63,077 nt of DNA from a virus, in the IMG/VR virus record IMGVR_UViG_3300044627_000701, positions 1-63,077 of that record, one strand, 5' to 3'. Under the pieces are notes generated by a model, which ran no database searches, was not told where the DNA came from, and saw only the letters and a list, made by a program, of their open reading frames with translations. Within the stretch, counting starts at the first letter, position 1; each line of letters begins with the position of its first letter. The position numbers and the translations under genes are program-made. Positions 10,820 through 57,406 of the stretch are shown piece by piece.

Positions 10820-11566
10820 CTATCGGAAATACTGGCGTGGGGCGATACGTAGCGGGGCCTTCTCGCGGTCCTCGTCCGATGCTTCCAGCCACAGCTCGTC
10901 ATACATTGCCTTGAGGCCCATAGACCGCTCCAGCGCACCGGGCAGTTTCAGCGACAGGTGATACGCCAGACCGGCCACAAGGCACGGGATGAAGCGGAAG
11001 GGGATGTCCTGCGTCACGAGGCCGTTGGTGCCAGCATCTTGGATGCGCCGCAGCCGCCAGTAGACGAACGTGTAGTAGTTGCTCTGCTCCGGAGCCGGCC
11101 AGACATTGATCTGCGGATGGTCCACGCCTGTGGTGGTGTTTGTCCCTGCTGGGCGTCCACCCGGCGGATAGGTCGCGCCTGACTGGCGGTTGATCCACAC
11201 CTGAATAGGCCGACCCTGCGCGTTCTTGTTCGGGATGGTGGAGTAAGTATCCACAGAGATGCGGTTGATGTTGATGTCGGTCTGACCCTGCTGCCCCGAC
11301 TGCGTACGGATGACGTGCTCGATGAGGTCAATGGTATCCACAGGCAGCTCATAGGTGATCTGCCCCTGCACCATGGGGATGGAGCCCTGCTCAACTGTCC
11401 ACAGGTTTATACCCTTGTTCGCCCACTCGATGGTCAGGATATTCAGGCTGCGCCGCGCCGTGCGGAAGTCGTAACCGGTGCGCATCTCCACGCCACAACG
11501 CTCGAACGCCTCTTCGAAGAGCTCGTTAAGGTTGAGGTTAAACGTGGATGTGCCGCTAGTGGTCAT
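10820..11566 (-). CDS. Head-tail connector (second adaptor/tail accessory) protein
   Basis: This 248-aa protein begins with a helical region (LNLNELFEEAFERCGVEMRT, then RTARRSLNILTIEWANKGIN), followed by strands and QINVWPAPEQSNYYTFVYWR. It ends with a helix-rich part (AGLAYHLSLKLPGALERS). This layout is typical of tail accessory or gatekeeper proteins that join the portal to the tail in podoviruses (P22 gp4 or SU10 adaptor type). It is separated from the next connector genes by the homing endonuclease gene. Its start overlaps the upstream gene's end (ATGA-type). Confidence 0.7.
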   Translation of the reverse strand: MTTSGTSTFNLNLNELFEEAFERCGVEMRTGYDFRTARRSLNILTIEWANKGINLWTVEQGSIPMVQGQITYELPVDTIDLIEHVIRTQSGQQGQTDININRISVDTYSTIPNKNAQGRPIQVWINRQSGATYPPGGRPAGTNTTTGVDHPQINVWPAPEQSNYYTFVYWRLRRIQDAGTNGLVTQDIPFRFIPCLVAGLAYHLSLKLPGALERSMGLKAMYDELWLEASDEDREKAPLRIAPRQYFR

Positions 11567-11838
11567 TTCTGTCTCCGCGCTGCCTGTACGCGCTTAGGCG
11601 CACCGGGAGGCTGCCCCAACCGCTTCTTCTGAGCGATACGCGTCTTCTTCTCCGTAGGAGTCATCTCCGACGACGTCTTGGGGGTCTTATCAGAAATACG
11701 CTTACTAGGTCTACAGTAAGGTGTGCCGCGCTTCTCACCCGGCTGACGCCCGCAGGCTTTACCCGTACGGACGTCCTTCCAGTCTTCTTGGAACCAGCGC
11801 TTAAGCGAAGCGCCTTTCTCGGTCTTACGAACTGCCAC
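11563..11838 (-). CDS. Basic DUF5872-like phage protein
   Basis: A GTG at 11838 is the best start (91 aa); the longer frame to 11898 would intrude further into the upstream gene. The protein contains LKRWFQEDWKDVRTG, then KACGRQPGEKRGTPYCRPSK and a Lys-rich tail, matching my recollection of the DUF5872 pattern (W-x-D-V, C-G-R, Y-C-R-P). It is strongly basic with two conserved cysteines. Function is unknown; position and charge suggest a virion or DNA-associated role. Confidence 0.68.
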   Translation of the reverse strand: MAVRKTEKGASLKRWFQEDWKDVRTGKACGRQPGEKRGTPYCRPSKRISDKTPKTSSEMTPTEKKTRIAQKKRLGQPPGAPKRVQAARRQK

Positions 11839-13329: not shown

Positions 13330-13742
13330 CAGACGAACCTTCCTTTAGTCTTACCCTTGGTGGCGCAGCCGTCTGCGCGCTTAGAGGCCGTAGAACCGCC
13401 CTTGGCCATCTTTTTGACCTTGCCGCCCTTCTTGAATGGGATAGCTGCACCAGCGCCAATAGCGCCACGGCGGCCAACGCCAAGGGACACACGCTCGCCG
13501 CCTTCCCCACGGATGGTAGGGCCAAGATAACCAGCAGTGCGGGCAATCGGCATAGGAGCACGAGCCGGAGCCGAGCCCATTGCAGGACCAGCCATACCAC
13601 CGCCGCCACCCGGCATCGACGGGCCCATACCACCGCTGGACGAGCCACGATTCAGAGAAGCAAGGTTGAAGTTCTGAGGGCGCATACCCTCGACGACGAG
13701 TTCTTCGTCTACCCCACCACCATCAGCGTAACGCTTCTTCAT
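13329..13742 (-). CDS. Gly/Met-rich virion-region protein with a KGG-SKRADG tail
   Basis: This 137-aa protein starts MKKRYADGGGVDEELVVEG and has a Gly/Met/Pro-rich middle. It ends MAKGGSTASKRADGCATKGK followed by TKGRFV. The YADGGGV phrase recurs as YAEGGGV in the 782-aa internal protein (57403-59751). The protein is probably disordered. Its start overlaps the stop of the glycosyltransferase gene. Function unknown. Confidence 0.6.
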   Translation of the reverse strand: MKKRYADGGGVDEELVVEGMRPQNFNLASLNRGSSSGGMGPSMPGGGGGMAGPAMGSAPARAPMPIARTAGYLGPTIRGEGGERVSLGVGRRGAIGAGAAIPFKKGGKVKKMAKGGSTASKRADGCATKGKTKGRFV

Positions 13743-14473
13743 GCTACATCCTTCTGTGGAACAACCATCGGGTAGAGGACGTCGTCCCCATAGTTACCGG
13801 TGTACTCCTGCACACCCATGTGGCCGAGGCTGATGGTCGGATCGACCCACACTTCATAACCCAGCTCGCGGGCACGGTCGCAGAACAGGAAGTCCTCGCC
13901 CATGTAACCCTCGTCGGTGAGCTTGAAGTCGAACAGGGCCGGGACCGTCTTGCCGCAGCGTTTGTCGTAGTACTTCCACTCTGGGTGCGCGGCGATCATG
14001 TCCTCGATGACCTTGCGCTGAATCAGCATGAACGCTGTCGCTACGCGCGTAGCCCGAACAAGGCCCATACCGTTCATCGTCAGCTCGCCATTCTCATCAT
14101 AGTCGAGGTCTGCGATGTAGGTTTTCTGTACGTCCCGGACGCGGGGGACACCCGCCACGATGCCCTTCTTGGGGTCTTGAGCCCACGCCATCAGGCGCAG
14201 GATGTCTTCAGGCTCGAAGTTGATGTCCGAGTCGATAAACATAAGGTAGTCAGCGTCCGACTCCAGCAGGTCCTGCACCAGCAGGTTGCGCGCCCGAGAG
14301 ACCACCGAGCAGCCACAGACGCTGCCGATGTTGATGTCAATACCGTGCTTAGGAGCCAGCTGCGCGAAGCGAGCAAGCGAGACCGCAAGCTTCAGCGACA
14401 CCTTGAAGTCGTAGGCGGGGAGGCCAATGAAGACCCCTTTTCCCGCCATATCGAAGCCTTTGACTGCTTGCAT
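13739..14473 (-). CDS. GT-A fold glycosyltransferase-like protein (late copy)
   Basis: This 244-aa protein has GVFIGLPAYD near the N-terminus, SRARNLLVQDLLESDADYLM, and FIDSDINF with a DxD motif (Asp81-Ser-Asp83) that would bind a metal-nucleotide sugar. GYMGEDFLFCDRARELGYEV further on matches the acidic ED motif of GT-A enzymes. The likely reaction is transfer of a sugar from a nucleotide-sugar donor; the acceptor (capsid or tail protein, or modified DNA) is unknown. A paralogue lies in the early arm (36330-37112). Location in the head cluster favours a virion protein acceptor. Confidence 0.78.
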   Translation of the reverse strand: MQAVKGFDMAGKGVFIGLPAYDFKVSLKLAVSLARFAQLAPKHGIDINIGSVCGCSVVSRARNLLVQDLLESDADYLMFIDSDINFEPEDILRLMAWAQDPKKGIVAGVPRVRDVQKTYIADLDYDENGELTMNGMGLVRATRVATAFMLIQRKVIEDMIAAHPEWKYYDKRCGKTVPALFDFKLTDEGYMGEDFLFCDRARELGYEVWVDPTISLGHMGVQEYTGNYGDDVLYPMVVPQKDVA

Positions 14474-21621: not shown

Positions 21622-21894
21622 TTATGCCTTTTTACGGGTAGCACGCGCTACGGTAGCGGCTACGCCAATGACGGGTGCGACCCCCGTCGCTACGCTTGCC
21701 ACGGTAGTGGTAATTTCAGCCACGTCCTTGAGGACGCCCAGCAGACCTCCGCTCTTGATGGAGTTAGCCGCCGCAACGGCGTCAGCAAACGGCACACCTG
21801 CTTCACGGGCCTCGTTGAAGGCAATTTTCTGCTTGTCTTTCCACTTCGACCACTGGGTCTTGCCAATGGGAAACAGCGCCTTGACCTCGGTCAT
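21622..21894 (-). CDS. Small hypothetical between portal and terminase
   Basis: This 90-aa protein begins MTEVKALFPIGKTQWSKW and contains FNEAREAGVPFADAVAAANS. The C-terminal half is hydrophobic (VASVATGVAPVIGVAATVA) and could insert in a membrane or pack in the virion. It overlaps the terminase stop by one base. Possible roles are a packaging accessory or ejected virion protein; neither is shown by the sequence. Confidence 0.62.
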   Translation of the reverse strand: MTEVKALFPIGKTQWSKWKDKQKIAFNEAREAGVPFADAVAAANSIKSGGLLGVLKDVAEITTTVASVATGVAPVIGVAATVARATRKKA

Positions 21895-23417
21895 CAGTAA
21901 TACCCCTGTCTGCGTGAGCTTTTAAAATACAGCGGTTCGTCGTCTGCGTCTAGCGTAGTAGATATATAGCCCCCGCGCCGGAACCTGTGCATCGCCATGG
22001 AGACGGTGTCGACAAAGTCATCGTGGCTGCCGGCAGGAAACTCAGCCACCTCGTCAATAACCTCCTCCGCCCAGCGTGTTGCCGGAGCCCAGACGCGCCC
22101 AGAGGCAAATATGTCCGCCACAGCGTTCAGACGGCTGATCTTGTCGTTCCCACGGGTGGGGGTGAACTCCTGCACGGGTATCCCCATGGAGCGAAGCTCA
22201 TAGATAAGCGGAGCGCCCGACGCCTTCTTTTCGACGATGACGCTGTCCGGGTCCCACTCTTTATACTCGTCGATGGCCCACTGCTTGAGCGTGGGGAACT
22301 CCACGCGGTCCCTCGCCGCGTTCAACATGATAATGTTGGCCTGCTCTATGCCGTTGTCGTCCGGGTGGTAGAATACACCCCACGTGGTCTGCGCCGAGTA
22401 GTCCGCTCGCTGCGTCTTCTCAAAGGCCGTGTCCCAGCATTGCAGGATAAAGTCGCACTGGGGCGGGGTCTCACGCTCCCACGTCTGCCACCACTCGCGC
22501 TTGACGATAGCAGCGCTCTCCGAGATGGGGTTCTGCTGGTACTGCGCCATCCACTTGCTGTTAGGGACGTCGCGCTTGACCTTCAGGAGTTCATCAACCG
22601 ACCAAAACTCGGGCCACAGCGGGTTGTTGCTAGGCAAAATTGCTGGAAATTCAACGACTTCCCACTCACCAACAGACTCGTTCTGGGTTGCGTCTTTCAA
22701 TATCTGCCCGGTCAGGTCGCGCTTCGACCACCGGGTCATGACGATGACGATAGCACCGCCCGGTTGCAGACGCTGACGGGGACCGGAAGTATACCACTCG
22801 TAGGTCTTGTCGTAAATATCCGGGTTCACTTCCGCCAACGCAGCTTCCTGTTCTGAGTGCGGGTCGTCGATGATGAGCAGGTCGGCACCCTTACCGGTCA
22901 CCGCGCCGCCGATACCAATGGCGAAGTAGTCACCCATCTTGCTGGTGTTCCACCGACCTGCGGCCTTTGAGTCCGCCGAGAGGACAAGGTCAGGAAAAAT
23001 CTCGTGGTACGTCTCGGTGTCGACGAGGTTGCGCACCTTACGACCAAAGCCCACCGCCAGCTCAGCTGTGTGCGAGCACTGGATGACCTTCTTATGGGGG
23101 AACTTACCAAGGAACCATGCGGGCAGGAGGTAGGACGCAAACTCGGACTTGGTATGCCGGGGTGGCATATTAATAATGAGCCGCTTCAGCTCCCCGCGCG
23201 CCACGCGCTCGAACGCATCTGCCATCTTGGCGTGGTGACGACCCGCAATAAACGTCGGCCAGACCTCGTTGACGAACGACAGGAACTTTTCTCGGCATAG
23301 CTTGCGCTTCTTCAGGTCGGACAGCTTCTCAAGCTCAGCCAGCAACCGCTCCTGCTCGTGCAACGGCAGCAGGGGGAGAATCTTTGGTAGATCAGCCAAG
23401 CTGATGCTGGACGTCAT
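21894..23417 (-). CDS. terL: Terminase large subunit
   Basis: This 507-aa protein is the DNA-packaging motor ATPase and nuclease. The ATPase domain has a Walker A-type loop (NMPPRHTKSE, residues about 83-92), Walker B (LLIIDDPHSE, 180-189), and RWSKRDLTGQ in the coupling region. The RNase H-like nuclease domain follows with ILQCWDTAFEKTQRADYSAQ, in which the Asp of CWDTA is the likely first catalytic acid, then VIVEKKASGAPLIYELRSMG. It should drive DNA into the portal using ATP and cut at headful or specific ends. It overlaps terS by four bases. Confidence 0.95.
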   Translation of the reverse strand: MTSSISLADLPKILPLLPLHEQERLLAELEKLSDLKKRKLCREKFLSFVNEVWPTFIAGRHHAKMADAFERVARGELKRLIINMPPRHTKSEFASYLLPAWFLGKFPHKKVIQCSHTAELAVGFGRKVRNLVDTETYHEIFPDLVLSADSKAAGRWNTSKMGDYFAIGIGGAVTGKGADLLIIDDPHSEQEAALAEVNPDIYDKTYEWYTSGPRQRLQPGGAIVIVMTRWSKRDLTGQILKDATQNESVGEWEVVEFPAILPSNNPLWPEFWSVDELLKVKRDVPNSKWMAQYQQNPISESAAIVKREWWQTWERETPPQCDFILQCWDTAFEKTQRADYSAQTTWGVFYHPDDNGIEQANIIMLNAARDRVEFPTLKQWAIDEYKEWDPDSVIVEKKASGAPLIYELRSMGIPVQEFTPTRGNDKISRLNAVADIFASGRVWAPATRWAEEVIDEVAEFPAGSHDDFVDTVSMAMHRFRRGGYISTTLDADDEPLYFKSSRRQGYY

Positions 23418-24016
23418 TCAGCGTCCTCTTCAGGGGTCTCGTCTTCGTCTTGGGGGCCCTCGTAGAAGCCAAACTCGTCGTCCAGAGTTGCTCCCACAGG
23501 GGTAACGTCTATGACCTCGGCGTCCAGCAGGCGCTTGACCCGCTCCTTGATGGCGGTTTCGAGCGCCTCGGGGCTGTTATAGTTGATGTTGATCTCGCTT
23601 CGCTGGGTGAACAGACTCACGTCGCTGTGCTTGCCAAGCAGCTCAATGGCCTTAAGCTCGAACTTGGTCTCGCCACAGTTGGCTATTTCTAACAGCTTAT
23701 TAGTAAGCGCCGAGCGGACTTGTCCGACGTCGAGAGCCAAGTTCTGGCCGTACTGCTGAAGAAACGCCTTAGCACCCAATGCTGTTGCATAACTTGTTAG
23801 AGGAGCCACATGCTGGCCCTTCACCGCCCCTTCAAGCAACGCCTTCTCCCGCTCGTACGTCGCCGGGTCCACTTCCAGTGGGACACCCATCTCTTCCAAG
23901 AAGTCAGCCGTATTGGACGCCGCCATCAGCTCATCCATGAAGCTGGGGTTCTCAACATCTTCGGGGCTGTAGGGTAGCGGGACAGAGTCCGTCGGGTTCA
24001 GCTTAACTTTGGACAT
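23414..24016 (-). CDS. terS: Probable terminase small subunit
   Basis: This 200-aa protein is the first gene of the late arm and overlaps the large terminase start by four bases. It is acidic at both ends, with a helical middle (LTSYATALGAKAFLQQYGQN, LTNKLLEIANCGETKFELKA, IELLGKHSDVSLFTQ), the sort of helix-turn-helix bundle followed by an oligomerisation region seen in small terminases. Position directly before the large subunit is the main support. The start has no obvious GGAG site and only a short leader from the predicted promoter. Confidence 0.78.
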   Translation of the reverse strand: MSKVKLNPTDSVPLPYSPEDVENPSFMDELMAASNTADFLEEMGVPLEVDPATYEREKALLEGAVKGQHVAPLTSYATALGAKAFLQQYGQNLALDVGQVRSALTNKLLEIANCGETKFELKAIELLGKHSDVSLFTQRSEININYNSPEALETAIKERVKRLLDAEVIDVTPVGATLDDEFGFYEGPQDEDETPEEDAE

Positions 24017-24051
24017 AGGCGCAGCGTCCGGTTTGAGGGAAGCAGACCTTA

Positions 24052-24080
24052 TCTATAGGGGCGTAGGGGATACATGTAAA
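24052..24080 (-). promoter_or_regulatory. Sigma70-like promoter for the late arm
   Basis: On the minus strand TTTACA (24080-24075) and TATAGA (24057-24052) are separated by exactly 17 bp, a near-consensus spacing and sequence. The predicted start lies about 29 bp before the terS ATG at 24016. It would drive the whole minus-strand late transcript. Confidence 0.6.
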
Positions 24081-24138
24081 GTGTGGTCCGGCCCTCCAGC
24101 AACGGGCGAAGCTGCTGATTATCCGGGTTACCCCGCTA

Positions 24139-24349
24139 GGGGGAGGAGGCGGGCAGATAGCAGGAGGTGTGGGTCCCATCAAGGGGGGTCTTCCTAATAG
24201 AAGGGGGGTGGGGGTAAGTGTTTGAAAAATATATAGGGGGTGGGGGGTCTTGATTTGGTTTTGTAAGGGGGGTGTTTCTGGGGGAACGTGATTGGTTGTG
24301 CAAAATAGTATGTATATATAAGCGCTAGGATTTGCTGTGGTTAGGGGGG
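24139..24349 (+). other. G-tract cluster in the divergent control region
   Basis: Within about 210 bp there are nine runs of five or six guanines, all on the plus strand, including 24203-24214 (two runs separated by T) and 24236-24247. This could form G-quadruplexes on the plus strand. The sequence between the late promoter and the early genes has no open frame of note. A role in transcription insulation, replication or packaging initiation is possible. Confidence 0.55.
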
Positions 24350-24358
24350 TGGCCCCCC
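24344..24358 (+). other. GGGGGG-TGG-CCCCCC hairpin
   Basis: Six G and six C are separated by TGG, forming a very stable hairpin at the right edge of the G-tract cluster. No T-run follows, so it is not a classic terminator; it may block polymerase read-through between the divergent arms. Confidence 0.5.
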
Positions 24359-24424
24359 GGTAGGGGCAACGCAACGCCTTTTCGCACCCCCCGCCCTTGT
24401 TGCGGATTTCCGCCCGCTATCCCT

Positions 24425-24454
24425 TTGATGTTACAGGGGAAATCACTGTACACG
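24425..24454 (+). promoter_or_regulatory. Weak candidate early promoter overlapping palindrome 1
   Basis: TTGATG at 24425-24430 and TACACG at 24449-24454 are 18 bp apart. The -10 sequence equals that of the promoter at 26023-26051 and lies inside the palindrome 24447-24460, so binding of a factor there would block the promoter. The match is modest, and this is only a candidate. Confidence 0.28.
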
Positions 24455-24460
24455 TGTACA
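24447..24460. promoter_or_regulatory. Palindrome site 1 (TGTACACGTGTACA)
   Basis: This is a perfect 14-bp dyad about 105 bp upstream of the first early gene. It differs from the four other sites only in its outermost base pair (T/A rather than C/G). The core GTACACGTGTAC is shared by all five. Confidence 0.75.
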
Positions 24461-24564
24461 CTGATTGCCTTGCCCCTACCTTGACAGTCTCAAGGTACTC
24501 AGGCAGAGGGAGAGGGCAGGGGGCATTCCGCCCGCCCGCAACTGCCATAGAAAGGCAACACACC

Positions 24565-25380
24565 ATGATTAACGTTACTGAGATCAAAACCGCTTCCCTC
24601 ACCTCTGAGGAGGCCGCCGCCTCGCTGGCGGTTGCGGCTCAAGCCGCCATTCAGGGCGATGACCAAACAAAGGCAGGCAAGGCGAAGGGTGCGGCGGCTG
24701 AGGCTGTCATGATTGCCGGCTTTAGTGATGACAGCGTTGCATCGCGGGAATGGTCCTTCGACGTCACCACCGGCAAGGGTGACGTTCACGAGCACGTGGT
24801 GACAATCGGTTATACCGAATTCGGTACCGAAACCGCCGCATGGGTGCTCAATGGCCAAGGTCAAGTTAGCCGGGTGGCGCAAGGGGCATACAAGCGTGGC
24901 ATGTTCCGCGCCATGTTCGCCCTGCCTGATGCTGTGCCGGCTGTGTGGACGATGACAGGCCGTGCCGTTGCACTGGCAAACGCTATTCGCAACGAAGGCA
25001 TGACAGCCCGCATTGAGGCGGGTGCGCTTAAGCTAGAGGGTGGCAACAGTGACAGGGCCAAGGCAATGCGGGAGGCGACCTCGCTTTCCGCCCTTCGCAC
25101 GGCGGCCAAGGGTGCTGCCGGTTCCAATCGTGACGCACCCCAGAACGACAAGAGCAAGGGGGAAGCTGGCCCCCGCGCCGCCACCCGCGAGGGAGTGTTG
25201 CGGGCGGCCTTCGCCGCATTGAGCGAGGTCGATGCGGGTGACGGTGCCGCGCTCAATGGTGCAGAGGTTGCCTTGCTCAAGGGGCTGGCCAAGGTGGCCG
25301 CCAGCATCGCCAAGGCAGAGGCTGAGGCCGAAAAGGCCGAAAAGGCTGAGGCCGCCCGCAAGGCAGCTCGCAACACCTAA
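24565..25380 (+). CDS. First early gene, unknown 271-aa protein
   Basis: The frame extends upstream to 24397, but ATG 24565 is preferred (MINVTEIKTASLTSEEAAAS), because the upstream stretch contains palindrome 1 and control DNA. The middle part (WSFDVTTGKGDVHEHVVTIG, YKRGMFRAMFALPDAVPAVW) looks like a folded domain, and the last 40 residues form an Ala/Lys/Glu helix. No family is recognised. It is alone between palindrome 1 and a strong terminator, so it is a separate early transcript, a layout typical of abundant or host-takeover proteins. Function is not claimed. Confidence 0.8.
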   Translation: MINVTEIKTASLTSEEAAASLAVAAQAAIQGDDQTKAGKAKGAAAEAVMIAGFSDDSVASREWSFDVTTGKGDVHEHVVTIGYTEFGTETAAWVLNGQGQVSRVAQGAYKRGMFRAMFALPDAVPAVWTMTGRAVALANAIRNEGMTARIEAGALKLEGGNSDRAKAMREATSLSALRTAAKGAAGSNRDAPQNDKSKGEAGPRAATREGVLRAAFAALSEVDAGDGAALNGAEVALLKGLAKVAASIAKAEAEAEKAEKAEAARKAARNT

Positions 25381-25387
25381 CACCCTA

Positions 25388-25411
25388 GGGGGAGGCCGCA
25401 ACGCCTCCCCC
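25388..25411 (+). other. Stable hairpin after first early gene
   Basis: GGGGGAGGC and GCCTCCCCC pair over 9 bp with a six-base loop, seven bases after the stop codon. It precedes the true terminator and may protect the mRNA 3' end. Confidence 0.55.
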
Positions 25412-25422
25412 GCTTCCCCCTC

Positions 25423-25456
25423 GCCCGCTAGGCCATGCGCCTAGCGGGCTTTTTTT
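25423..25456 (+). terminator. Strong rho-independent terminator
   Basis: An 11-bp perfect stem (GCCCGCTAGGC with GCCTAGCGGGC), a five-base loop (CATGC) and seven T form a textbook terminator. It isolates the first early gene from the repeat-rich region that follows. Confidence 0.93.
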
Positions 25457-25487
25457 GTGCCTGCCATCAGCGCCACGGCGGCCAAAG

Positions 25488-25650
25488 ATGATAGTGGGCT
25501 GAGCGGTAGGACTAGCCTGCATCTGGATGGCGCATTGCTAGTGTAAGAAAACCATAGGGCTGAACGGTGGTGTAAGAAAATGATAGTGGGCTGAGCGGTA
25601 GGACTGAATCTGTATTGTAAGAAAATGATAGTGGGCTGAGCAGTAGGACT
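25488..25650 (+). repeat. Direct repeats with a common 26-bp unit
   Basis: Copies at 25488-25513 and 25580-25605 are identical, and 25625-25650 differs by one base. The last two are 45 bp apart and are preceded by TGTAAGAAA. A degenerate copy (CATAGGGCTGAACGGTGG) lies at about 25553-25570. The unit contains ATAGTGGGCTGAGC. Such spaced repeats resemble iterons. Confidence 0.88.
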
Positions 25651-25653
25651 TAG

Positions 25654-25667
25654 CGTACACGTGTACG
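25654..25667. promoter_or_regulatory. Palindrome site 2 (CGTACACGTGTACG)
   Basis: Perfect 14-bp dyad placed directly after the third direct repeat in the candidate origin region. Unlike sites 3-5 it is not followed closely by a start codon. Confidence 0.8.
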
Positions 25668-26022
25668 ATAATCTAATGTAAGAAAAAACATACCGTAAGA
25701 AACGTATTGTGAGGTTCTTACGCCGAAAAAGTTATGCAACCACAACGGGTTAAGTGGTATCGTAAGATTGAGAGGCCAATTTTCTAGTTTTTAAAAGATA
25801 CCCGGATTCGCGGGCTTCTCCGCTGATACCACATCCTCTCAATAGGTTTTTTCCTATTTTTCCCCCCCTATATAATAAATCTTAAAATCTCCTCTCAATC
25901 TTACAATACAGAGCTAACACCTTGGTTTTATAAGCCGATTCGCGTAAGAAAGTGCGTAAGACGGCACTTTTGGGTTTCTCTCAATCTTACACTGCATTGT
26001 AAGATTATTTTCTTACAATAGC

Positions 26023-26051
26023 TTGACTTTGTTCCCCTTACGTGCTACACG
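26023..26051 (+). promoter_or_regulatory. Early promoter before 26141 operon
   Basis: TTGACT, a 17-bp spacer ending TGC, and TACACG. The same architecture (TTGACA, 17 bp ending TGC, TACAAG) occurs at 27344-27372, and in both cases a palindrome core begins 57-58 bp after the first base of the -10 element. Confidence 0.6.
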
Positions 26052-26100
26052 TAAGAGGTCAGGGCAACTCCGCCCTGCGCGACGAGCAACGTCGAAAATC

Positions 26101-26118
26101 ACCGTACACGTGTACGGT
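26101..26118. promoter_or_regulatory. Palindrome site 3 (18-bp perfect dyad)
   Basis: ACCGTACACGTGTACGGT is a perfect dyad whose centre is about 31 bp upstream of ATG 26141. In mRNA it could fold into a hairpin just before the ribosome-binding site. Confidence 0.85.
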
Positions 26119-26140
26119 ATGGTAGAAAGGAAATCTTACA

Positions 26141-26389
26141 ATGACCAACTGGAAGTCCTTACAGGACAGCAACCCTGAGCCTAGCTTGCTAGACGCTATC
26201 GCCCATGCGGAGAAGAAACAATTAGAGGACAGGCGCAGCCTGCATAACTTCATCAATGCGTGGGCCAAGGCAAACGGGGTGCCTGTGGTGGACGTGCCTA
26301 TGTCCGACCTGCCTATGCTGTTCGAGATGCCTAGCCTGAAGGACGCCGCGACATACATCGCCACTTTCGGACAGGGAGAGGACAAGTGA
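26141..26389 (+). CDS. Small early hypothetical protein
   Basis: This 82-aa protein starts MTNWKSLQDSNPEPSLLDAI, is mixed helical with an acidic/basic middle, and has no cysteines or membrane span. It is the first gene after promoter 26023 and palindrome 3, with AAGGAAATCTTACA before the ATG. Its stop overlaps the next start (GTGA). It may be an early host-interaction protein; no family is recognised. Confidence 0.7.
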   Translation: MTNWKSLQDSNPEPSLLDAIAHAEKKQLEDRRSLHNFINAWAKANGVPVVDVPMSDLPMLFEMPSLKDAATYIATFGQGEDK

Positions 26390-26529
26390 GCCGGAAATAC
26401 TGGGTCAACTGCCGTGGCGAGATGTTCTACCCCATCTATGCGCCCAACAAGCGCGAGGCGCTGCGGTTCTTCAAGAAACACTTTGGCTGGGACCGCCTGC
26501 CTGTCGGCACCGAGTGCGGTCTGGTCTGA
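26386..26529 (+). CDS. 47-aa early hypothetical protein
   Basis: This frame starts with GTG at 26386, overlapping the previous stop (GTGA). It encodes MSRKYWVNCRGEMFYPIYAP and a C-terminal helix (KREALRFFKKHFGWDRLP). It is aromatic-rich with two cysteines. The coupling to the upstream gene supports its reality. Function unknown. Confidence 0.62.
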   Translation: MSRKYWVNCRGEMFYPIYAPNKREALRFFKKHFGWDRLPVGTECGLV

Positions 26530-26566
26530 CGTGGCTATGCGCCATCCAGATGCAGCCTACGTTTAC

Positions 26567-26580
26567 CGTACACGTGTACG
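26567..26580. promoter_or_regulatory. Palindrome site 4 (CGTACACGTGTACG)
   Basis: Perfect 14-bp dyad extended by partial matches. Its centre is about 29-30 bp before ATG 26603. No recognisable promoter precedes it at the spacing seen for sites 3 and 5. Confidence 0.82.
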
Positions 26581-26602
26581 CTAACTGAGAAGGGACAAGA
26601 CA

Positions 26603-26785
26603 ATGGGTAAAGTCATCAAGCCTGTGAACCTGACGCAACGTGTGTGGGACCGCATGTCAAGGCGCGAGAAGGAGTTCATCGTCGAGCACGAGCGTATGCA
26701 CGAGAAGTTCCGCCAACGTGCGGGCTGCGGGCATATGAGCGCAGAAGAGCTGTTTCAAGCTATTATGGAGCAAACCAATGCCTGA
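26603..26785 (+). CDS. Small basic early protein
   Basis: This 60-aa protein (MGKVIKPVNLTQRVWDRMSR) is Arg/Lys/Glu-rich and helical, with HERMHEKF in the middle. It follows palindrome 4 and an AGAAGGGACAAGACA leader. It overlaps the next gene by eight bases. Its size and charge allow nucleic-acid binding, but no domain is recognised. Confidence 0.68.
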   Translation: MGKVIKPVNLTQRVWDRMSRREKEFIVEHERMHEKFRQRAGCGHMSAEELFQAIMEQTNA

Positions 26786-26972
26786 GTGCATATCCTGCGG
26801 AGAGACATACTCCGAGCGCCGCGCCCTGCTGGGCTACAACACCTGCCTGTCGTGTGGCGACTTCGCTGCGCGCGCAGTGAAATGGTGCAGCGCACCACTA
26901 AACAAGAGCAACTACGTTGTTATCACCAACAAGGCAGAGCTGACGATGCTCAACCCGAAGAGGACAAGCTGA
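26778..26972 (+). CDS. Small zinc-finger protein
   Basis: This 64-aa protein has two CxxC pairs, Cys4/Cys7 (PECISCGET) and Cys23/Cys26 (NTCLSCGDF), with a spacing that fits one zinc ribbon. The C-terminal half is basic and Asn-rich. It starts inside the end of the preceding gene and ends in a TGATG overlap with the next. A nucleic-acid or protein-binding adaptor role is likely. Confidence 0.7.
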   Translation: MPECISCGETYSERRALLGYNTCLSCGDFAARAVKWCSAPLNKSNYVVITNKAELTMLNPKRTS

Positions 26973-27340
26973 TGGGCTACCGTAGCGATGTGACGTTCGC
27001 CTTCTATGCGAACCCCAACAAATTAGAGATGTTCCCAGCTATCAAGCTATGGGTAGAGGAGAACTGGCCGAGGGAGGCAGACCCCTTCATCGAAAGCCGT
27101 GAGGGCATCATCACCGTCAAGTATGATGACGTGAAGTGGTATGATGACTTCGACTACGTGAAGGACGTATGGGCTGCCATCGAGCGGTTCGAGGCAGCGT
27201 TCAATACCGAGGATTTCGAAACGCATTGCGCCTGCTGGGAGTATGCCCGTGTGGGCGAAGAGAGAACCGATCTCGACTCTGGTGGTTCCGCCTACCACCA
27301 CTACCGTGTAGGTATCAGTGTCAGCATCACCGTCGACTGA
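26972..27340 (+). CDS. Early acidic hypothetical protein
   Basis: ATG 26972 overlaps the preceding stop (TGATG) and gives 122 aa beginning MGYRSDVTFAFYANPNKLEM. It is rich in aromatic and acidic residues (VKYDDVKWYDDFDYVKDVW, then EDFETHCACWEYARVG). Similar compact acidic proteins (MGYRSDV start) occur in other phages and plasmids with no known function. It ends just before the second early promoter. A DNA-mimic or host-inhibitor role is only speculation based on charge. Confidence 0.75.
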   Translation: MGYRSDVTFAFYANPNKLEMFPAIKLWVEENWPREADPFIESREGIITVKYDDVKWYDDFDYVKDVWAAIERFEAAFNTEDFETHCACWEYARVGEERTDLDSGGSAYHHYRVGISVSITVD

Positions 27341-27343
27341 ACC

Positions 27344-27372
27344 TTGACATTGTCCACCTACTCTGCTACAAG
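27344..27372 (+). promoter_or_regulatory. Early promoter for the MoxR/VWA operon
   Basis: TTGACA, a 17-bp spacer ending TGC, and TACAAG. The -35 is consensus. It starts immediately after the stop of the preceding gene and lies 92 bp before ATG 27464, with palindrome 5 between. Confidence 0.72.
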
Positions 27373-27421
27373 AAGAGGGTGAGGCGGGAACCAACCCGCC
27401 CCGGCCAACTAAGCAACCAAA

Positions 27422-27441
27422 TACCGTACACGTGTACGGTA
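27422..27441. promoter_or_regulatory. Palindrome site 5 (20-bp perfect dyad)
   Basis: TACCGTACACGTGTACGGTA is the longest of the five dyads. Its centre is about 32 bp upstream of ATG 27464. Relative to the promoter it sits in the 5' leader at the same position as site 3. Confidence 0.88.
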
Positions 27442-27463
27442 AACACGAAAGAGCAAACACAAC

Positions 27464-28540
27464 ATGACTTCAATCAACTTTGGTTCGCGTGTCTCTCTCA
27501 AGGAGGCAGCGCAGCTGATCGCTGCGGTCGGCACAACAAACAACGTCATGCTGCGTGGCCCCAAGGGCATCGGCAAGTCGAGCATCCTACCCATGATGCG
27601 TGAGTATCTGGGTGACGAATACGAATACGCCTACTTCGACATGACGTCGAAGGCCGAGGGTGACGTGGCTATCCCGTTCCCTGACAAGGAGGCGGGCGTT
27701 ATGCAGTTCTTCACGAACGAGGCGCTCAAGCTGCACACCGGCAAGCCCGTGGTTATCATGTTGGACGAGCTGGCCAAGGCACCGCGCAGTATCCAGAACA
27801 TGGTGCTGCCCATGTTGGAGAACCCAAGGCGCGTTGCAGATAAGCGCCTGCCTGATGGCACTATGGTCATTATCACTAACAACCTATCGGAAGAGGGGCT
27901 GGGCGATACGTTCATGGCGCACACCCTGAACCGCATGACTGTGCTGGAGGTGCGTCAACCTTCTGTCGAGGAGTGGCTGGTGTGGGGTGCTGGCAGCGGC
28001 ATCCATCCTGTTGTGCTGGCGTGGGTGAACCAGACACCCACTGCACTGGCATCGTTCCGCGATGACGACTTCGACGCAAGCAACCCCTACGTCGATAACC
28101 CCAAGCGTGTGCAGGTAGGCCAAGTCGTGACTCCGCGTTCGCTGGAGAAGGCATCGCACATCGTGTGGCAGCGTGAGAAGTTCAGCGAGAACACCCTGCT
28201 GGCTGCGCTTATCGGCACCATCGGTGAGCCTGCGGCGCGGGACATGCAGCACTACATCGCCTTCCAAGACGAGCTGCCTAGCCGTGAGCTTATCCTCAAG
28301 GCACCTGATACCGCACCTATCCCTACGTCCGTAGGTGCAATCATCACCCTGCTCTTCAACCTTGAGCGCGCAGTGGAGGCCGACACCATGTCGGCCATCA
28401 TGAAGTATGTGTCTCGCATGGAGGCCGAGCATCAGGCTGTGTTCTGCACCAGCCTCGCACGTAGCAAGACCAAGCAGACCATCGCCTTCCGCAATGGCGA
28501 CTTCACCAAGTGGGCGGCTGAGAACGCAGATATTTTGTAA
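27464..28540 (+). CDS. MoxR-like AAA+ ATPase
   Basis: This 358-aa protein has Walker A (RGPKGIGKSS, about 31-40), Walker B (VVIMLDELAKA, about 96-106), a sensor-like NN (MVIITNNLSEEG) and an arginine-finger region around NRMTVLEVRQPS. The order and spacing fit MoxR/RavA-type AAA+ ATPases, which form hexameric rings and work with VWA-domain partners to remodel or insert metal into target proteins. A VWA partner is encoded 0.9 kb downstream (29476-30705) in the same operon, with one conserved-looking gene between. Promoter 27344 and palindrome 5 precede it. The substrate is unknown. Confidence 0.88.
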   Translation: MTSINFGSRVSLKEAAQLIAAVGTTNNVMLRGPKGIGKSSILPMMREYLGDEYEYAYFDMTSKAEGDVAIPFPDKEAGVMQFFTNEALKLHTGKPVVIMLDELAKAPRSIQNMVLPMLENPRRVADKRLPDGTMVIITNNLSEEGLGDTFMAHTLNRMTVLEVRQPSVEEWLVWGAGSGIHPVVLAWVNQTPTALASFRDDDFDASNPYVDNPKRVQVGQVVTPRSLEKASHIVWQREKFSENTLLAALIGTIGEPAARDMQHYIAFQDELPSRELILKAPDTAPIPTSVGAIITLLFNLERAVEADTMSAIMKYVSRMEAEHQAVFCTSLARSKTKQTIAFRNGDFTKWAAENADIL

Positions 28541-32770: not shown

Positions 32771-32864
32771 CCCGATACTTTTCTGGACGGTGGTCGCACT
32801 TATTGTAGTGCCTAGCTACATACTGATTAAGCGGGCTATCGACCGCGATGGGGATAAGCCATGA
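32763..32864 (+). CDS. 33-aa membrane protein before DNA polymerase
   Basis: ATG 32763 encodes MHDPILFWTVVALIVVPSYI followed by LIKRAIDRDGDKP, one membrane segment with a basic tail. Its TGA overlaps the polymerase ATG (ATGA at 32861). The coupling suggests it is translated. It could anchor the replication complex or be a small toxin-like protein; there is no direct evidence. Confidence 0.55.
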   Translation: MHDPILFWTVVALIVVPSYILIKRAIDRDGDKP

Positions 32865-34675
32865 CCATCCTGACCGTAGACTTCGAGACCTACTACAGCC
32901 AGCAGTTCAGCCTGTCGAAGATCACAACGGAGGAGTATGTCCGTGACTCGCGGTTTGAGGCTATCGGCGTATCCGTAAAGGTGGACGACGAGCCGGCGCA
33001 GTGGTTCTCCGGCACTGCCAAGCAGACCAAGGCTTGGCTGGATAGGTTTGACTGGGCCAACAGCATCGCCATCGCGCACAACGCGATGTTCGACATGGCC
33101 ATCATGAACTGGCGGTTCGACATCCGACCCAAGCGCATAGTGGATACCCTGTCCATGCTGCGGGCTATCGACGGACCTGATGCGGGTAACAGCCTAGCCA
33201 AAGCTGCCGAGCGGTACGGGCTGGGCGTCAAGGGCACCGAGGTCGTCAATGCGCTGGGCAAGCGCCGGCTGGACTTCACGCCGGAGGAGTTAGCGGCCTA
33301 CGGGGATTACTGTATCAACGACACCGAGATGACGTACAAGCTGGCGATGAAGTTGCTGGAGGGGTTCCCCAAGGAGGAGCTTCAGCTAATCGACCTGACT
33401 ATGCGCATGTTTACCGAGCCGGTTCTGTATCTCGAAAAGGCCGATTTGGAGTTACACTTATCCGAGGTGAAGGCGCATAAGGAAGCGCTCATGGCCAAGA
33501 TGAACTACGACAAGGCCGAGCTGATGAGTAACCCCAAGCTGGCCGAGCTTCTGGAGTTCCATGGCGTTGTTCCCCCTAGGAAGATCAGCCCGACGACGGG
33601 CAAGGAGACCTTTGCCTTTGCCAAGAACGACGAGGCGTTCAAGGAACTGCTGGAGCATGAGAACGAGCAGGTGCAGGCCATTGTGGCTGCGCGGCTAGGG
33701 GTAAAGTCTACACTGGAGGAGACCCGGACCGAGCGGTTCATCGGTATCTCAGAGCGTGGTCTGCTGCCTGTTCCCCTGCGCTATTACGCAGCCCACACCG
33801 GGCGGTTCGGTGGCGACGATAAGGTCAACCTCCAGAACCTGCCGCGCAAGTCGCCGCTGAAGAAGGCCATCAAGGCACCTCCCGGCTACGTGGTTATCGA
33901 CTGCGACTCCAGCCAGATCGAAGCGCGCACCTTGGCGTGGCTGGCTGGGCAGTGGGACTTGGTTGAGGCGTTCGACAAGGGTGAGGATGTCTACAAGATC
34001 ATGGCGTCATCCATCTACGGTGTGCCTATCGAAGAGGTCACCGACTCGCAGCGGTTTGTGGGTAAGACTACCATCCTAGGTGCAGGCTACGGCATGGGCC
34101 CGGCTAAGTTCCAAGCGCAGTTGAAGACCTTCGGTGTCACCATGGAGCTGGACGAGTGCAAGCGCATCATCGCGGTGTACCGGGAGACTTACCCCTACAT
34201 CCCCAAACTGTGGCGGGACACGGGTGACGCGCTGGAGTCCTTGGTAGTCAATAACCTTACGTCGATTGGTGAGGGCATGAAGCTGGCTGTTGCTGGGGGT
34301 ATCGTACTCCCCAACCTGTTGCGCCTCCGCTACCCCAACCTGCGGCTTATCCTGAACGACAAGGGCAAGCAGGAGATGGTGTACGACACCAAGAAGGGCC
34401 GAGCGGTTATCCCTACGCGGATATACGGCGGCAAGTGCGTCGAGAATATCTGCCAAGCCTTGGCCCGCATCATCATCGCTAACCAGATGCTGATGATCGC
34501 CCGGAGGTACAAGGTAGCCATGACCGTCCACGATAGCGTGGTGGTGGTAGCACCGCAGGAGGAAGCTAACGAGGCGCGTGCGTTCGTTGAGCAGTGTATG
34601 CGTATCCGCCCGAAGTGGGCAGCGGCGTTGCCGTTAAACTGTGAGAGCAAGATGGGAGCAAGCTATGGCGGGTGA
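32861..34675 (+). CDS. Family A DNA polymerase with 3'-5' exonuclease
   Basis: This 604-aa replicative polymerase has an N-terminal DEDD exonuclease: VDFETYY (Asp7, Glu9), AHNAMFDM, and an AYGDYCINDTEMTYKL Exo III site. The polymerase domain has motif A (VIDCDSSQIEART, catalytic Asp349), motif B (RFVGKTTILGAGYGMG, Lys402, Leu406, Tyr410) and motif C (MTVHDSVVVV, Asp558). Leu406 aligns with Phe762 of E. coli Pol I, and motif C has HDS instead of the usual HDE. It lacks the 5'-3' nuclease domain, as is normal for phages. Confidence 0.95.
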   Translation: MTILTVDFETYYSQQFSLSKITTEEYVRDSRFEAIGVSVKVDDEPAQWFSGTAKQTKAWLDRFDWANSIAIAHNAMFDMAIMNWRFDIRPKRIVDTLSMLRAIDGPDAGNSLAKAAERYGLGVKGTEVVNALGKRRLDFTPEELAAYGDYCINDTEMTYKLAMKLLEGFPKEELQLIDLTMRMFTEPVLYLEKADLELHLSEVKAHKEALMAKMNYDKAELMSNPKLAELLEFHGVVPPRKISPTTGKETFAFAKNDEAFKELLEHENEQVQAIVAARLGVKSTLEETRTERFIGISERGLLPVPLRYYAAHTGRFGGDDKVNLQNLPRKSPLKKAIKAPPGYVVIDCDSSQIEARTLAWLAGQWDLVEAFDKGEDVYKIMASSIYGVPIEEVTDSQRFVGKTTILGAGYGMGPAKFQAQLKTFGVTMELDECKRIIAVYRETYPYIPKLWRDTGDALESLVVNNLTSIGEGMKLAVAGGIVLPNLLRLRYPNLRLILNDKGKQEMVYDTKKGRAVIPTRIYGGKCVENICQALARIIIANQMLMIARRYKVAMTVHDSVVVVAPQEEANEARAFVEQCMRIRPKWAAALPLNCESKMGASYGG

Positions 34676-36151: not shown

Positions 36152-36333
36152 CGGGTAACATTGTCAGTCGCCCCCGCAAGCCTGCTGGCTGGTGGACGCC
36201 TGAAAAGCGTCAGGTGGCTTGGGATATGTACGTAGAGGGTAAGCCCTTTGAGGAGATCGCTGAGCACTTTGGCGTGACCCTCGCCGCCGCTGCGCGGCAG
36301 GTGTACCAGCACAAGAAGGAGCAAACGAAGTGA
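36148..36333 (+). CDS. Small helix-turn-helix protein
   Basis: The start is GTG 36148, overlapping the methyltransferase stop. The 61-aa protein has WWTPEKRQVAWDMYVEGKPF followed by EEIAEHFGVTLAAAARQVYQ, a Myb/GcrA-like or sigma-like HTH at about residues 20-52. A basic end (HKKEQTK) follows. It could be an early transcription factor, possibly the one that binds the palindrome sites, though this is not shown. Confidence 0.75.
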   Translation: MTGNIVSRPRKPAGWWTPEKRQVAWDMYVEGKPFEEIAEHFGVTLAAAARQVYQHKKEQTK

Positions 36334-37112
36334 GTGACGAATACAAGGTGACGCCGGTCGAGACCAAGCGCCCGAGCCTGATGATCGCTACTCCCATGTA
36401 CGGCGGCATGTGCACGGGTGCGTATGTGCAAGGTCTGCTGTTCACGGTCGCCAAGATGCGTGAGCTGGGGGTGCATGTGGCGTGGTGCCAGATCACCAAC
36501 GAGAGCCTTATCACCCGCGCCCGTAACGAACTGGCGCGTGTCTTCCTTGAGAGCGGCCACGACTACCTGATGTTCATCGACGCTGACATTGGCTTCGACG
36601 CTAACGCTGTGGCTATGCTGCTAGCGGGAGACAGGGACATCGCGTGCGGCATCTACCCCAAGAAGGAAGTGAACTGGGATAGCGTCAAGAAGGCGGCGCG
36701 TGAGGGTAAGAACGACCTGCACGACCACGCTGGTGCGTTCGTCTTCAACATGGTTGGCAGCGGGGATGTCGAGACCGATCCAGAGGGCTTCATCGAGGTC
36801 CGCCATGGCGGTACCGGCTTCATGCTTATCAAGCGCGGTGTGTTTGAACACCTTGCGCCGCATGTACCTACCTATCGGGTGTCGTCGTTCTTTGACCCGG
36901 AGAAGGGGGAGTATGCCAAGCCTTTGACCCATGAATTTTTCGCAACGAGTATCGACGACAGTGGGGCGTTGCTGTCCGAAGATTATCACTTTTGCGAACT
37001 GTGGCGGAAACACGGGGGTAAAATCCATGCCCACCCCTTCATCCGTCTTACCCACACCGGCACGTATACATACGACGGTGACATACTGAAAAGCGGCGGG
37101 AACCTAAAGTAA
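36330..37112 (+). CDS. GT-A fold glycosyltransferase-like protein (early copy)
   Basis: This 260-aa protein starts with GTG (AAGGAGCAAACGAAGTG). It contains PSLMIATPMYGGMCTGAYVQ, SLITRARNELARVFLESG, FIDADIGF with a DxD motif (Asp84-Ala-Asp86), GTGFMLIKRGVFEHL and LLSEDYHFCELWRKHGGKI, the late acidic motif. It is a paralogue of the late-arm protein 13739-14473. It would transfer a sugar from a nucleotide donor. Being early it might act on DNA, host targets or nucleotides, and it neighbours a methyltransferase. Confidence 0.8.
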   Translation: MSDEYKVTPVETKRPSLMIATPMYGGMCTGAYVQGLLFTVAKMRELGVHVAWCQITNESLITRARNELARVFLESGHDYLMFIDADIGFDANAVAMLLAGDRDIACGIYPKKEVNWDSVKKAAREGKNDLHDHAGAFVFNMVGSGDVETDPEGFIEVRHGGTGFMLIKRGVFEHLAPHVPTYRVSSFFDPEKGEYAKPLTHEFFATSIDDSGALLSEDYHFCELWRKHGGKIHAHPFIRLTHTGTYTYDGDILKSGGNLK

Positions 37113-42268: not shown

Positions 42269-42496
42269 ATGCGCGGCTACAGTATCGAAGTAGCCGAGGC
42301 TATCTGGAAAGGGGATAGGTCCCGTCTAGGAGTGCGCTTGGGCAAAGCTTGCATTGAGCGCCGTGTCCCGGTGACGAAAGTCGCCGGGGCCCTAGGGGTG
42401 ACTCGCCAAACGATCTATAACTGGTTCGTAGGCGCGTACGACCCTGCCGAGTCCCATCGGGAAGCGGTAGAGAAGTTTTTAGCCAGTCTCGACTAA
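42269..42496 (+). CDS. Small HTH DNA-binding protein
   Basis: This 75-aa protein contains a Cro/CI-like HTH (PVTKVAGALGVTRQTIYNWF, about residues 34-53) and a C-terminal helix. It follows the ssDNA-binding-like gene by three bases. Candidate phage regulator; it could bind the palindrome sites or the hexamer cluster. Other HTH candidates exist (36148-36333, 37123-37848). Confidence 0.78.
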   Translation: MRGYSIEVAEAIWKGDRSRLGVRLGKACIERRVPVTKVAGALGVTRQTIYNWFVGAYDPAESHREAVEKFLASLD

Positions 42497-45535: not shown

Positions 45536-45581
45536 GATAATAGTGGAGCTGGAAGTTTGCTCCTTCCGTGTTGCACCCCCT

Positions 45582-45629
45582 CCCGCCGGCTGTAGGTCTC
45601 CCCCATGACCTCGCCGGCGGGATTTTTTT
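45582..45629 (+). terminator. Terminator between the converging arms
   Basis: A 9-bp stem (CCCGCCGGC with GCCGGCGGG) with an inner five-pair stem (AGGTC with GACCT) is followed by A and seven T on the plus strand. It ends early transcription just before the stop of the giant late gene. The minus strand lacks a T-run after the hairpin, so termination of the late arm is less certain. Confidence 0.9.
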
Positions 45630-56979: not shown

Positions 56980-57406
56980 GGTTTACTCCTGCCGGTAGCT
57001 GGAACGTCTGCCACAAGGCTTCGTATCCATCGTCTTTAAATACACGGGCCCAACCAAGGCGGGCGGTGGCTTCCAGACCCTCACAGTCGTTGTCAGCGGC
57101 GAACCGCTGCAAGATATCCAGCATCGGGGCTTTCCACGTGCTGAACTCGTCTCCGGTGACGATAGGGCACCCAAGGAACCGCTTCCTTGGGTACTGGAGG
57201 ATGTGGGAAATAACCGCGCCATTGATGTCGCCGTCTTCAAACGCAATCCACAGCTGATGCGTACCGGCCAGCAGCTCGTCCAAGGTATCTTCAGGTTCGT
57301 AGCGCCCATAGGTGTACGCAAGCGCGTCAGCAACGTAGCCAACCACAGCCGGCCACACGTTTAGAACGTGTTCCGTCGGCACTAAGCTGACATGAACTTC
57401 ACTCAC
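56972..57406 (-). CDS. GNAT-like virion-region protein
   Basis: This 144-aa protein (MSEVHVSLVPTEHVLNVWPA) has a layout like small acetyltransferase-fold proteins: YTYGRYEPEDTLDELLAGTH, LWIAFEDGDINGAVISHILQ, and a C-terminal ARLGWARVFKDDGYEALWQT. No clear acetyl-CoA P-loop (R/Q-x-x-G-x-G/A) is visible, so it could be a structural relative. Similar proteins are common beside internal virion protein genes. It overlaps both neighbours. Confidence 0.68.
   Translation of the reverse strand: MSEVHVSLVPTEHVLNVWPAVVGYVADALAYTYGRYEPEDTLDELLAGTHQLWIAFEDGDINGAVISHILQYPRKRFLGCPIVTGDEFSTWKAPMLDILQRFAADNDCEGLEATARLGWARVFKDDGYEALWQTFQLPAGVNHG

Follow-up and report, generated by a model that had tools for sequence, protein, structure and literature searches.

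A probable PICI/SaPI-like replication origin in an uncultured tailed phage and its relatives

The region from 25485 to 26140 of virus record IMGVR_UViG_3300044627_000701, which was analysed as a whole (63,077 bases, referred to as the window), is probably a phage replication origin resembling those of the PICI/SaPI type, and its most likely initiator is a primase-DUF927 helicase encoded on the same record (Table 1). A candidate replication origin had been put forward for this place in a first-pass annotation and is still the best reading of the region; position and layout of the repeat array are retained in relatives and resemble PICI/SaPI origins. The observations on which we build are the repeats, present in excess, a layout that relatives keep while its letters differ, and an initiator candidate recognised by homology and predicted fold. 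From these and by analogy we infer the origin role, the binding of the initiator to the array and an order of events. In this order, the predicted C-terminal winged helix of the initiator would bind the iterons (TTGTAAGA) and initiator hexamers would form to either side of an AT-rich core. The core would then melt and the initiator helicase would load onto the separated strands, where priming would fall to the fused primase domain and extension to the family A polymerase that the phage encodes. Among the papers listed by literature searches, none describes an origin in these phages.

The array occupies a stretch that the first-pass annotation had described as free of genes. It is bounded on the left by a plus-strand gene whose end is at 25380 and on the right by the first early gene, which starts at 26141, and no open reading frame of at least 80 aa is present on either strand at 25402-26058. 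The hexamer GTAAGA/TCTTAC occurs 38 times in the window, 15 of these within about 600 bp (25543-26139; ten on the plus and five on the minus strand). The earlier count of fifteen in 25457-26140 is reproduced, whereas 1000 dinucleotide shuffles gave 0.42 on average and never more than 4. In no 684-bp segment (step 171 bases) does any canonical 6-mer reach a higher density, the next being ACCGCC with 14 copies at 57799; these ACCGCC hexamers are dense over 57799-58995, with up to 14 per 684 bp, where a gene extends from 57403 to 59751. The GTAAGA sites fall into a left set of seven and a right set of eight, with the AT-richest part of the window between them, and a search for a second cluster of TTGTAAGA elsewhere in the window found none. 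The AT-rich stretch mentioned earlier is equally evident, the five AT-richest 50-bp segments of the record all lying inside the core and the sixth starting at 25984. The direct repeats seen previously belong to a 35-nt family of three copies, spaced by 92 and 45 and 83-97% identical to the reference copy, and inverted repeats are present as well, for example with 37-nt arms at 25757-25793 and 25873-25909 that are 76% complementary. With regard to this inverted repeat, the window's 13-mer GTAAGATTGAGAG is replaced by GTAAGATTGTAAG at the matching places in the relative L008.

Table 1. Positions of the features discussed in the text (window coordinates).
Feature	Position	Strand	Remark
Large and putative small terminase genes	21894-24016		about 1.5 kb from array
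Variant palindrome TGTACACGTGTACA	24447-24460		upstream of gene at 24565
Fast-evolving 271-aa protein, candidate palindrome reader	24565-25380	+	left of array
Terminator-like hairpin	25423-25449	+	closes gene on left
Three direct repeats with ATGATAGT	25479-25513, 25571-25605, 25616-25650	+	left of and among left iterons
Left iteron set	25543-25767	6 + / 1 -	7 exact GTAAGA
Palindrome CGTACACGTGTACG	25654-25667		in left iteron set
Long imperfect inverted repeat	25757-25909		spans core
AT-rich, pyrimidine-rich core, candidate unwinding element	25839-25919		between both sets
Right iteron set	25899-26139	4 + / 4 -	8 exact GTAAGA
Promoter-like TTGACT-N17-TACACG	26023-26051	+	sigma70-like; right of array core, before early genes
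Palindrome CGTACACGTGTACG	26103-26116		before first early gene
First early gene, 82 aa, function-unassigned	26141-26389	+	right of array
Palindrome CGTACACGTGTACG	26567-26580		before gene at 26603
Palindrome CGTACACGTGTACG	27425-27438		before MoxR-like ATPase gene
MoxR-like ATPase gene	start 27464		
Family A polymerase gene	32861-34675		
75-aa HTH protein	42269-42496	+	directly upstream of initiator gene; rival repeat reader
Candidate initiator, 932 aa	42553-45351	+	primase-like N terminus, DUF927 helicase, C-terminal winged-helix-like domain
Predicted winged-helix-like domain of initiator	45100-45297		about residues 850-915

No DnaA box (consensus TTWTNCACA) lies in the array, and the two in the window (24297 and 32640) equal the number expected by chance. 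An Rfam scan of 24000-27600 gave two chance-level matches, both far below gathering scores. The genes of the window point leftward below 24.0 kb, rightward from 24.6 to 45.4 kb and leftward again beyond. Cumulative GC skew, recommended earlier as a check, has its minimum at 23936 and its maximum at 45559, both near these changes of gene direction, and lends no support to a bidirectional origin; it was discarded as origin evidence because its extremes lie close to the gene-direction switches and because minus-strand genes show a third-position skew opposite in sign to that expected of forks leaving this site in both directions.

Unlike a PICI, a satellite that lacks a full set of virion genes, the window encodes portal, terminase, major head and virion proteins, and no integrase was detected among the 30 proteins scanned of 76 predicted ORFs. 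That the array is a centromere-like partition site of a phage-plasmid is extremely improbable: some partition loci also have iterated sites around a promoter, but no ParA/ParM-like or plasmid gene appeared among the same 30 proteins when scanned against PHROGs. Two further observations concern the gene content. A 2751-aa protein (45628-53883) is matched over part of its length by a DarB-like antirestriction family and by a virion RNA polymerase family. N4-type hairpin promoters, which serve a virion RNA polymerase, were considered because the protein matches phrog_2206 (virion RNA polymerase), with residues 101-419 only, corresponding to profile positions 182-491 of 3406. Members of the phrog_1574 family, with weak glycosyltransferase matches, are encoded twice in different genome arms (13739-14449 and 36330-37112).

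Relatives were collected by a scan with the MoxR-like protein, which gave four close loci, by a polymerase scan (80 loci) and by a MoxR alignment scan (80 further loci, part of them in records already found); their records are metagenomic and may be incomplete. Identity of the array core to the window reaches 95% in L009 (401 bp) and 80% in L008 (679 columns). In distant relatives the array sits in the same place, with the terminase-side gene on one side and the early genes on the other, and the layout of repeats, AT-rich core, repeats, sigma70-like promoter and early genes is kept. Absence of the repeats from relatives had been named beforehand as an argument against an origin; they are present, with their letters changed. 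The repeats read TGTAAG (L012, L034, L038 and L044), TGTTAC, TGTTAT or TGTTAG (the last in L104), TATTAG in L106, and AATGTTATA, AATGTTACA and ATGTTAGTAA in L101, L107 and L112, respectively. A motif search with masked palindromes covered 65 regions. Of these, 21 had been positioned manually, and for the other 44 the longest ORF-free stretch upstream of MoxR was taken automatically; the latter came from 50 loci chosen for their upstream sequence, two of which had too little of it and four no such stretch. Forty-four of the 65 regions scored above the 99th percentile of 296 dinucleotide-shuffled controls, although these 44 arrays are not independent cases since near-duplicates are among them (L175/L176/L179; L209/L214), and the window reached 124.5 against a maximum of 80 among its own 40 shuffles. 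Part of the 21 regions below the threshold is explained by automatic placement having missed the array. At least two TGAYAGT/MGTTCTC elements occur in 23 of the 44 arrays (0.07 in shuffles). Outward polarity of the sites was rejected as a general feature: to the eye, the two sets seemed clearly opposed in orientation in several relatives, yet significance was reached in only 16 of 44 arrays, with p 0.72 for the window. In one relative (L095 3750-3934, the end of contig G013) the contig stops in the middle of the expected origin region in gene-like sequence, possibly through mis-assembly at the repeats.

The promoter-like motif at the right of the array was too weak for a stricter promoter scan, which missed it. 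Relatives keep it, often with TATAAT as its second hexamer, and it was found in 40 of the 44 arrays (shuffles: mean 7.3, maximum 15). An inverted site pair lies directly upstream of its first hexamer, and two more GTAAGA hexamers lie in and past it (26051 and 26134). With the array ending at a motif so widely kept, with a site pair placed in this manner and with an HTH protein that matches repressor families, the array might be no origin but a set of operators, its many sites upstream of the early promoter being bound by a regulator of the phage such as, perhaps, the HTH protein. We regard this as improbable, since the sites reach about 500 bp upstream and flank a conserved AT-rich core, neither of which a promoter needs, and the layout matches published origins.

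Two cultured and hence laboratory-testable relatives, Pseudomonas phage KPP25 (Kochitakasuvirus; 35% polymerase identity to the window) and Rhizobium phage RHph_TM3_14A (38%), likewise have a gene-free AT-rich repeat stretch ahead of their early genes; no origin annotation was found in the examined regions of either. In RHph_TM3_14A this stretch lies at 19.4-20.1 kb with ATTATG-like repeats. Its gene EVB41_076 (MN988472.1, 42239-45322) is annotated as 'putative integrase', yet matches DUF927 and the profile of the initiator (Rep). Unlike the window, KPP25 has repeats reading TGTTACGA in two places, about 26.4-26.8 kb and about 58.3 kb, which are 76% identical over 170 columns; these two related arrays are possibly two origins. 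KPP25 has no match to the Rep profile, and an 801-aa protein carries DUF5906 instead of DUF927. Both of its arrays (NC_024123.1, locus L092, about 11395-11826 and 43258-43543) have an AT-rich core, one near each end of the structural module. The early region of RHph_TM3_14A (locus L091) contains TTACCT-N4-AGGTAA palindromes, six copies in the 16 kb examined, similar to the operator sets of uncultured relatives. The same two phages bear on the notion that the array is a packaging (pac/cos) site for the small terminase to bind, which the nearness of the terminase genes in the window and also in some relatives would favour. Such a site is very improbable: RHph_TM3_14A has its large terminase gene and the neighbour upstream of it at 10.7-12.7 kb, well apart from the repeat stretch, and in KPP25 the terminase is at 20-22.5 kb, away from both arrays.

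An origin of the proposed kind calls for an initiator, and the first-pass annotation saw no classical initiator gene. This view has to be revised, as the 932-aa protein is related in structure to the Rep of SaPIbov1 and the Cch of SCCmec. Its N terminus (residues 21-181) matches the primase-like family phrog_2478, and the protein scores 102.5 bits against Pfam DUF927 (cut-off 22.6). A profile of residues 338-932 built from 25 sequences matched only two PDB entries at E up to 1, namely 5dgk (SCCmec Cch; 1.1e-16) and 8tch, by its title the replication initiator helicase of SaPIBov1 (3.1e-13). The AlphaFold2 model (mean pLDDT 80.4, pTM 0.62) has a predicted C-terminal unit of strand-helix-helix-strand-strand (model residues 513-578). 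Foldseek with this model placed 5dgk and 8tch on top (E about 1e-17 to 1e-19), and structure comparison gave Z 28.1 for 5dgk (481 residues) and 26.9 for 8tch (458 residues), with the third entry at 11.7. The alignments to both include the C-terminal domain, that to 8tch ending at model residue 588; the match is best read domain by domain, since an rmsd of about 14 A suggests differing domain placement. The protein is not a member of the NCBIfam equivalog SCCmet_Cch1, with 34.8 bits against the more than 700 required. In L025 (8705-11604) the Rep gene appears to be split into two pieces in different frames, as an intron, a frameshift or an assembly error might produce.

The region could also be an origin whose repeats are read by the 75-aa HTH protein, which would then recruit the helicase, roughly in the manner of the separate origin-binding protein of lambda. 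This protein belongs with the repressor families phrog_2328/phrog_35, Pfam HTH_23 falling just under the cut-off, and its gene precedes rep in 41 of 41 genomes from which Rep was retrieved. Repeat class and protein distances were compared by Mantel tests in 27 genomes classed by repeat type, with G048 and G050 dropped for unclear arrays and G046 reclassed by eye. Every part of Rep correlates with repeat class. In partial tests given helicase distance, the lowest value belonged to the C-terminal winged helix (r 0.09, p 0.08), an intermediate one to the recognition region of the HTH protein (r 0.18, p 0.004) and the highest (r 0.42) to the primase part of Rep, which is not expected to read iterons; shared descent therefore dominates, and the tests single out no reader. 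At single positions, residue 47 in the recognition helix of the HTH protein is Q in 8/8 TGTAAG and 4/5 TGTTAT genomes and M in 10/11 GTTAC genomes, and Rep residue 883 is E or Q in 11/11 GTTAC genomes and K, Q, T or Y in 8/8 TGTAAG genomes. The way both residues follow the repeat class is suggestive. Beyond the higher score of the primase part, a loose profile search found no HTH homologue in the examined parts of KPP25 and RHph_TM3_14A, both of which have array-like stretches, and SaPI Rep itself is described as the origin binder in PMC7581432. On balance, reading by the HTH protein is unlikely, and the initiator is preferred as the protein that would bind the iterons.

The two palindromes listed in the first-pass annotation, with the sequence CGTACACGTGTACG, are indeed present at 25654 and 26103, but this sequence is not specific to the origin: it recurs exactly at 26567 and 27425, and with two mismatches at 24447. 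Three of the four exact copies sit 36-39 bases ahead of the start codons at 26141, 26603 and 27464, and in relatives such positions are taken by different palindromes (CTAACANTGTTAG in many of them, TTTGCCGTAGCRCTACGGCAAA in L009, CCTGATACGTATCAGG in L103 and CGTGGCACGTGCCACG in L112). By sequence, the palindromes are a separate operator-like system before early genes, covarying with the gene for the 271-aa protein. This protein has no match in PHROGs, Pfam or NCBIfam, and its structure model (mean pLDDT 45.6) was set aside. It is only about 29% identical between the window and L008 or L009, or 30-33% in a separate alignment, in contrast to 92% (L008) and 88% (L009) for MoxR and 91% (L008) for the large terminase. 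With palindrome classes assigned by eye and G004, G013, G022 and G026 left out for want of a clear class, homology of the 271-aa protein (E < 1e-5) was found for 30 of the 34 pairs that share a palindrome class, against 29 of the 174 that do not, 24 of these 29 being among CTAAC...GTTAG variants and five among the window, L135, G001 and G002. A search with the window protein found a 95% identical copy in L135, which carries the window's palindrome at four places and a fifth, shorter match where the variant sits. These patterns point to palindrome and 271-aa gene as a putative regulator-operator pair that would be exchanged, or change, as a unit. The HTH protein was rejected as palindrome reader: the window and G002 have completely different palindromes, yet the recognition helix of the protein does not differ between them. 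L102 and L106 have two copies of the palindrome-linked regulator gene per genome.

A wider proposal is put forward tentatively. A large group of uncultured tailed phages might use a SaPI/PICI-type replicator as the principal origin of their genomes. Two recognition systems would then diversify independently of each other in the same place, namely iterons whose letters change with layout and initiator staying, and palindromic operators changing together with an autoregulated 271-aa protein beside the origin. Where no integrase is seen, the latter could act as an immunity-like switch over early genes and replication, sorting related phages into incompatibility groups. If the group does use such a replicator for its own genome, satellites and autonomous phages would be linked in the descent of their replication modules. 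Since the layout is shared by many relatives whose repeat letters differ, they form a natural data set on how the specificities of an initiator and its origin change together.

Among known systems, the origin of SaPIbov1 is reportedly treated by Ubeda 2007 and Ubeda 2012. The lambda and lambdoid ori with its O protein iterons shares iterons, an AT-rich segment and a nearby transcription unit with the window; unlike lambda, the window has no O homologue among its scanned proteins, and its array lies outside the initiator gene. SCCmec Cch is the best structural match to the initiator (Z 28.1), but in contrast to Cch and Cch2 a primase-like domain is fused to the helicase here and the element is of another type. 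According to PMC7581432, Cch contains DUF927 and is related to SaPIBovI Rep, SaPI Rep recognises iterons with its C-terminal domain, and Cch2 needs iterons near its own gene and binds them via its C-terminal domain. PICI origins are positioned directly 3' of the rep gene, whereas the array of the window (25.5-26.1 kb) lies 16.4 kb before the initiator gene (42.6-45.4 kb), beside an early promoter and in a phage that is self-sufficient, encoding capsid, portal and terminase itself; because of this distance the claim is that the region works like a PICI origin, not that it is one. What the window has in common with PICI/SaPI origins is two sets of short iterons around an AT-rich region, together with, as in the Rep systems of the SaPIbov1 type, a helicase initiator of the DUF927 fold to which a primase is sometimes fused.
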